Assembly (NCBI RefSeq): GCF_000407185.1 | Contig: NZ_KE136483.1 | Location: forward strand, 496,001 to 560,000 | Reading direction: 5' to 3' | Source: Enterococcus malodoratus ATCC 43197 | GTDB taxonomy: Bacteria > Bacillota > Bacilli > Lactobacillales > Enterococcaceae | Length of the DNA: 64,000 nucleotides | In this document: one piece after another, positions 2,843-56,115 of the stretch | Numbering within the stretch: position 1 is the stretch's first letter | Layout: each line of letters starts with the position of its first letter | The notes under the pieces: model-generated | Databases searched by the model: none | Told to the model about the DNA's origin: nothing | Seen by the model: the letters and a program-made list of their open reading frames with translations, nothing else | Translations under genes and position numbers: made by a program

Positions 2843-2972
2843 GAATATTCCTCCTACTTCGCTTCAAGGTAATTATTTTTCAAAAAACGAAAAATAAATT
2901 TGATTTTCAACTGTATATCATTCTGTTAACGTACTAAAGGCACGAAAGGAACTTGATAAATTACGCATAGCA

Positions 2973-18718: not shown

Positions 18719-18886
18719 ACATACACTCCAATAATTAATAGCTTAACAAAGCTATCCAGATAAAAATTCAAACGCAATGTCTTTCTACTCTAAACCATAA
18801 CAAAAGTAGAAGTCAAAATTTAAGAACGAATCACTGAAATCATTTTTATAAAAATGAATACATTGAAGCGAATTAGGAGGCACCTC

Positions 18887-48619: not shown

Positions 48620-48765
48620 TAAACAAACCAAAATCCAAAGAGAACAAAGGTTTTCTAATTTTATTATAACGTTATTTTAAATACAAATGAAAAGGAATCG
48701 AGTATGATTAACTCATAACCAATAACGACCTTTTCTTTTTCATTGCATTTAGGTAATACTCCTTT

Positions 48766-48794
48766 AGCACCGATTTGCCGATCGGTGCTTTTTT
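48766..48794 (+). terminator. Rho-independent terminator
   Basis: Perfect 9-bp stem AGCACCGAT / ATCGGTGCT, 6-base loop, then T run. The stretch before it (48620-48765) includes ATGAAAAGG...CCTTTTCTTTTTCAT, another inverted pairing, so a short RNA could end here; I see no firm promoter for one. Confidence 0.8.
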
Positions 48795-49182
48795 GTGAGT
48801 TCTACTGCCAGCTTCAGCTGGCTAAGTAGAATCATATGCGTAACGAGAATAAATTCATTTTTCCGGTTTTCGGGGAAAATGATTTCCTTGTAAACGAGAT
48901 AGCTGTCAGTTCTGCTTTTCGCAGTTTATCAATTTTGATCCGTGATTATAAAGTTTAATGTTTATTGAGCATGGGCAGTTTAGCAGAATGATATGCGAAA
49001 TGACAATCAGACTCATTTTTCTATAAGAAAAATGAATCCTTTAGTAGGAAATAGCTGTGAGTTCTACTGCCAGCTTCAACGGGGCTAAGTAGAATCATAT
49101 GCGCAACGAGAATAAATTTTTTTCCGGTTTTTGGGGAAAATGATTTCCTTGTAAACGAGATAGCTGTCAGTTCTGCTTTTCG
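48795..49182. repeat. Three-unit structured intergenic repeat array
   Basis: Unit 1 (48795-48921) and unit 3 (49057-49182) are about 127 bases long and nearly identical. Between them a diverged unit (about 48909-49056) keeps the same order of elements. Each unit has an inverted repeat TTCTACT/AGTAGAA (TTCTGCT/AGCAGAA in the middle one), then ATATGCG, a second hairpin TCATTTTTC.../GAAAATGA, then CCTT...ATAGCTGT, which leads into the next unit. The array ends with an unpaired TTCTGCT, as if a fourth unit were cut off. No coding frame runs through it. Confidence 0.8.
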
Positions 49183-55965: not shown

Positions 55966-56115
55966 AGGAACGTTTCTATAAAATAGTTGATCATTCTTTC
56001 GCCGGTTACTTAGCGCGAAGATAAAAATGTCTTCACAAATCAAGTCACAAAGACCTAATTGGATGATAGACGGCTTGAAAATAAAATACATTAAAACGAA
56101 AAAGGAGCAAGAAGC

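Follow-up and report, generated by a model that had tools for sequence, protein, structure and literature searches.

The EFAR repeats of enterococci, the subject of a 2009 paper, reportedly show variable assembly and stem-loop targets. Efa-1 of Enterococcus faecalis is 163 nt long and has a pair of adjacent hairpins (available part of PMC2267715). In mycobacteria, MIRU are mobile; they insert at start codons and affect the gene concerned only slightly (available part of PMC12548453), and their copy number varies between strains (available part of PMC4213456). The BOX, RUP and SPRITE repeats of Streptococcus pneumoniae are small, modular and structured, form tandem modules and have been judged parasitic; they are compared here by description, and the available part of that account describes no insertion in Shine-Dalgarno sequences or behind terminators (PMC3049150). 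REP/RAYT and other MITE families are small palindromic non-coding elements that spread in trans (available part of PMC3733652).

The window analysed here, a 64,000-nt stretch of the Enterococcus malodoratus ATCC 43197 genome, contains an array of two-hairpin units that is one locus of a dispersed family with two subfamilies, type A and type B. We take the array, with a probability of roughly 0.7, to be a non-autonomous mobile interspersed repeat, at a locus of type A, that inserted at gene punctuation and was then tandemly amplified. On the best reading, by analogy, the family may work like mycobacterial MIRU or BOX. MIRU would be the closest functional parallel: both are mobile tandem repeats inside operons, placed at a translation-start feature, with the downstream gene little affected. 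MIRU differ in that they target the start codon itself and contain an open frame that is coupled to the following gene; the Enterococcus units have their type-B joints in the Shine-Dalgarno sequence and not at the start codon, possess covarying hairpins, remake the Shine-Dalgarno sequence and include a second subfamily at terminators. With EFAR/Efa-1 they share the character of interspersed enterococcal repeats with two adjacent stem-loops, here called H1 and H2. A literature search, in a coverage outside which most subscription journals lie, found nothing on this family or on enterococcal repeats that rebuild the Shine-Dalgarno sequence.

Direct reading and a repeat search resolve the array into three head-to-tail units (48796-49166, plus strand) followed by 16 bases of a fourth. 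Unit 1 (48796..48905, 110 nt, type A) has a short H1 (48800-48806 / 48825-48831), the linker ATATGCG, H2 (48855-48864 / 48874-48882) and the tail TAGCTG. Unit 2 (48906..49057, plus strand, 152 nt) is a long-H1 form, with H1 at 48910-48916 / 48982-48988, H2 at 49013-49021 / 49027-49035 and the same tail, and unit 3 (49058..49166, plus strand, 109 nt), again with a short H1, has an H2 whose 5' arm has been shortened by two bases. The 5' start of the fourth unit (TCAGTTCTGCTTTTCG) occupies 49167..49182 on the plus strand. The initial annotation gave units 1 and 3 a length of about 127 bases, which is a unit plus the start of the next one; it was right that they are nearly identical (95% match). 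Also read in the sequence as it had stated are the H1 arms TTCTACT/AGTAGAA in units 1 and 3 and TTCTGCT/AGCAGAA in unit 2, the perfect H2 pairing TCATTTTTC/GAAAAATGA of unit 2, the recurrence of ATATGCG and ATAGCTGT among the units, and the retention by the middle unit of the order seen in every unit of the array, namely H1, a linker with ATATGCG, H2 and a tail ending in TAGCTG.

Within the window, each of the three units matches, at E 1.6e-11 or better, a covariance model built from 23 sequences that include the units themselves. Rfam has no family scoring above the gathering score on the units of the window and of 12 loci. Compared with shuffled sequences, unit 1 has a strongly folding H1 (z -4.66), H1 of unit 3 folds weakly (z -1.94), and the long H1 of unit 2 is also weak, only a modest improvement on its shuffles (z -1.24). 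H2 folds moderately in units 1 and 2 (z -1.97 and -2.67), and the H2 stretch of unit 3 does no better than its shuffles (z -0.46).

The array begins one base past the T-run of an intrinsic terminator (48767..48794, plus strand; hairpin 48767-48788, T-run 48789-48794), which lies outside the element and was absent from the initial annotation. A borderline match to Rfam RF02846 (Ref84, an Enterococcus sRNA) at 48717..48796 on the plus strand, with a score of 52.1 against a cut-off of 52, ends in the same terminator. Of 103 Enterococcaceae genomes, 88 have a Ref84 match (68 of them above the cut-off), and in one genus the family occurs in several copies. At the orthologous site, E. hulanensis (L222) has the same terminator followed by the element, and the contig of E. 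raffinosus DSM 5633 (L221) begins within an element at this place, with the terminator side out of view. Seven species or strains have the terminator alone: E. avium, strains N17 and MJM16, E. pseudoavium, E. xiangfangensis, E. pingfangensis and E. dongliensis; JM4C was left out as not comparable.

Searched with the covariance model R1, which describes the H2 part and was built from 23 units, the E. malodoratus genome yields at least 124 units (E up to 0.01), grouped into 77 clusters; the figure is a lower bound because scoring covered 150 of 7085 candidates. Searching the same genome by DNA similarity gave 55 matches. Single units make up 45 clusters, and the other 32, with two to five units, are head-to-tail without exception (32/32). 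The clusters show a strong strand bias (33 of 39 on the minus strand of contig C1, 19 of 22 on the plus strand of C3), which could follow gene direction or replication. The further copies sought in related genomes exist: R1 matches all 20 genomes of the genus, 41 of 105 genomes of the family and 5 of 17 genera, in a family-wide search with strict filters and at most 45 candidates scored per genome, and DNA search alone matches 17 of the 20 genus genomes. Megaplasmids of E. raffinosus and E. gilvus carry copies; a single type-B query found no match in a phage collection.

Tandem number varies between E. raffinosus strains, and five megaplasmids of this species have 12, 12, 14, 9 and 9 matches. 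There are 3 versus 1 units upstream of cydD, 4 versus 2 ahead of a gene taken to be trpB, 2 versus 1 at a third locus, 1 versus 2 behind a terminator, and 2 versus 1 before queG; at queG, the copy of three strains has its H2 deleted. In these queG leaders (L285, L286 and L287), a precise gap takes out H2 together with most of the H1 loop, as if hairpins had been deleted at the DNA level. At a proline-reductase locus, a length difference of 152 nt fits one unit.

The main finding, missed in the initial annotation, is the rule for insertion sites. The tail with which a cluster's final unit ends sets its type: 45 clusters are type B (AAGGA or TAGGA) and 32 are type A (31 with TAGCTG-like tails, one unclear); a few are mixed, for example L133 with one unit of each type. 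By a fixed criterion, 26 of the 32 type-A clusters start one base after a T-run that a hairpin precedes, an arrangement found at 11 of 2427 sites elsewhere in the same loci with the same start motif and in 17 of 2507 random 150-nt windows. In other genomes, from which overlapping loci were removed by hand, a terminator precedes 16 of 23 distinct type-A clusters, leaving 6/32 clusters of E. malodoratus and 7/23 of the other genomes without one by this criterion. One type-A element (L163) abuts a terminator that has a T-box leader directly upstream (1197-1438).

In E. malodoratus, 43 of 45 type-B clusters have, 3-15 nt past the tail, a start codon that opens a frame of at least 40 codons, and a start codon follows 27 of 28 distinct type-B clusters of other genomes. 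The same arrangement occurs at 45 of 3986 random positions; AGGAG sites elsewhere on the same strand of the same loci, a fair baseline, are followed by such a start codon in 101 of 192 cases, lower than 43/45. The AGGA-like tail is itself no independent evidence because type B is defined by it. A simple finder of upstream arms misplaced several H1 starts in degenerate copies, and its H1 columns were therefore left out of the statistics. The window holds a type-B unit core at 2851..2923 (minus strand), which ends TAGGAG before an ATG, and two degenerate type-B units outside the set of 124. These are weak matches on the plus strand, at 18824..18879 (E 0.0015; ending TTAGGAG, 9 nt before an ATG) and at 56061..56107 (E 0.0016; H2 missing, ending AAAGGAG before an ATG). 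The family settles exactly at gene boundaries, in the direction of transcription, and its spread appears to do adjoining genes little harm.

The unit at 2851..2923 lies between genes that we take, from their protein sequences, to be nrdE and nrdF. Six of 20 genomes have R1 units in this spacer, of type B in E. malodoratus, E. avium ATCC 14025 (G002) and G008 and of type A in G005, G010 and G012; G011 gives a weak match (E 0.027), and 13 of the 20 have no R1 unit there. The empty spacer of G016 reads ACTTTAGGGGGAAT, and the filled one of G002 has ACTTTAGGA on the left side, then the element, then TAGGGGGAAT. Between two further genes, presumably ylxM and ffh, an R1 unit is present in one of 19 genomes, that of E. 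malodoratus. Here an AAAGGA after the stop codon leads into the element, and a second AAAGGA comes behind it; empty relatives have just one, and G007, E. hulanensis (G009) and G014 have what by eye look like decayed copies. At both loci the Shine-Dalgarno core ([A/T]AGGA) thus stands on both sides of the type-B insertion, and the flanking copy could be a target duplication or the element's own end. No target-site duplication is evident for type A. The case for mobility compares filled and empty orthologous sites between species at three loci (the terminator of the window, nrdE-nrdF and ylxM-ffh), where joints are not base-precise because the flanks differ by 10% or more between species; the direct repeat is seen at two of them.

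Changes on both sides of H1 affect 10 of 16 pairs in 43 units with a short H1, and the covariation cells number 59 against 18.3 in shuffles, with none of 500 shuffles as high and each of the slid controls lower; the rows were picked partly on H1 pairing, and relatedness among the sequences raises such figures. Further pair types do not stand out from the shuffles in number (19 vs 17.2, 81 of 500). Because of the selection on pairing, the arms were retaken by position only. Fully complementary arms were then found in 121 of 196 pairs (shuffled mean 27.3, maximum 40 in 1000). The arm pairs are many and diverse, among them TTCCACT/AGTGGAA, TTCTGCT/AGCAGAA, TCCAACT/AGTTGGA and TTTTTCT/AGAAAAA. The covariation suggested by the initial annotation thus lies far above the shuffled controls when put to a statistical test. 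RNAalifold, applied to A2, recovers H1 and not H2. As to the proposed selection on RNA or cruciform structure, the arms do covary, but such counts cannot separate hairpins of RNA from those of single-stranded DNA, and the covariation could also arise when imperfect palindromes are corrected during replication.

The strong covariation of the arms, together with the fixed direction and place of the units in transcripts and the position of type-B copies before core genes (judged from first residues, the gene names being assumed), would suit regulatory RNAs of the host, that is leader or 3'-end elements that control translation, stability or termination and have spread because they are useful. Such a role is quite improbable: presence at the same gene differs between species, unit number differs between strains, decayed copies are plentiful and no Rfam family matches. 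In addition, Shine-Dalgarno accessibility near type-B units (median 0.47, n = 42) does not differ from that of other genes (median 0.40, n = 100; p 0.24), which lends no support to a translational switch. Among the options of the initial annotation, namely an RNA family, a MITE-like element and a protein-binding array, the MITE-like element fits best, with its filled and empty sites and varying tandem number, and an RNA family is not shown. The units do not appear to form a classical MITE, because by eye no terminal inverted repeats are seen; in this, and in the absence of a Y1 transposase from the E. malodoratus genome, they differ from REP/RAYT. Another explanation would place the units in the EFAR/Efa-1 family of E. 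faecalis or a diverged branch of it, and EFAR is indeed a mobile repeat of enterococci. The two adjacent hairpins and the 163-nt length of Efa-1 (available part of PMC2267715) speak for this relation, yet in 400 kb of G020, presumed, partly from its Ref84 score, to be E. faecalis, the unit profile finds nothing (best E 0.42), and R1 has no match in G020 among 45 of 4526 candidates scored. The same genome has a separate high-copy two-hairpin repeat (GAGCGTGGGACAAAAATC.., L290-L309), which probably is EFAR/Efa-1; within the 400 kb its sequence is unrelated to that of the units, and membership of the units in that family appears very unlikely.

Harmless positions can also be explained without any recognition of targets, if insertion is broad and the survivors are those that sit behind terminators or happen to restore a Shine-Dalgarno sequence, and the small share of type-A clusters elsewhere (6/32) would agree with this. 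We consider such a filter unlikely to be the whole explanation: most clusters share the exact base at which the joint falls with respect to the T-run or AGGA, harmlessness alone would not require AGGA on both sides at nrdE-nrdF and ylxM-ffh, and safe intergenic sites far from terminators ought to be filled too. Survival bias, with harmless insertions kept, could nevertheless sharpen the pattern without target choice. A tentative proposal, possible but below even odds in our estimation, is that of a mobile family that reads gene punctuation, with type A entering behind intrinsic terminators and type B entering Shine-Dalgarno sequences that are rebuilt, driven by a dedicated hairpin-recognising enzyme that is neither a Y1 transposase nor a reverse transcriptase.

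The search for a mobilising enzyme covered the Y1 transposase and reverse transcriptase families, and both were rejected as drivers. Y1 transposases are absent from the E. malodoratus genome and from the copy-rich genomes G003, G007, G014 and G018. E. malodoratus has one reverse transcriptase gene (two pieces of one 604-codon frame), and none is present in 5 of the 20 genus genomes (G004, G008, G013, G018 and G019), some of which are copy-rich.

For the mobile repeat that we prefer, the sequence comparisons suggest the following course. The element is a unit of H1 (short or long) and a T-rich H2, with a conserved linker, ATATGCG or ATATACG, and a tail. New copies would be inserted at a terminator or Shine-Dalgarno landmark by an enzyme supplied in trans. 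Type A would be placed behind the terminator, interrupting nothing; type B would enter the Shine-Dalgarno core ([A/T]AGGA) and leave a copy on each side, so that the downstream gene keeps its ribosome-binding site. The hairpins may be retained because they are needed by the mobilising machinery or by the RNA in which most copies must lie. Tandem arrays would then grow or shrink through slippage or recombination, and decaying copies would lose their hairpins.

If this is true, hundreds of enterococcal operons would have a leader built by a transposon, in which a mobile repeat provided or doubled the ribosome-binding site, and two related subfamilies would have shared out the safe places to land in a compact genome. 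The target choice of an orphan repeat would become directly testable, and tandem loci that vary by strain would be usable for typing. It would also call for caution in this group, where 5' leaders and the spacing of Shine-Dalgarno sequences would be mobile, and the family would stand beside MIRU as a second, independent case of mobile DNA that exploits translation-start signals.
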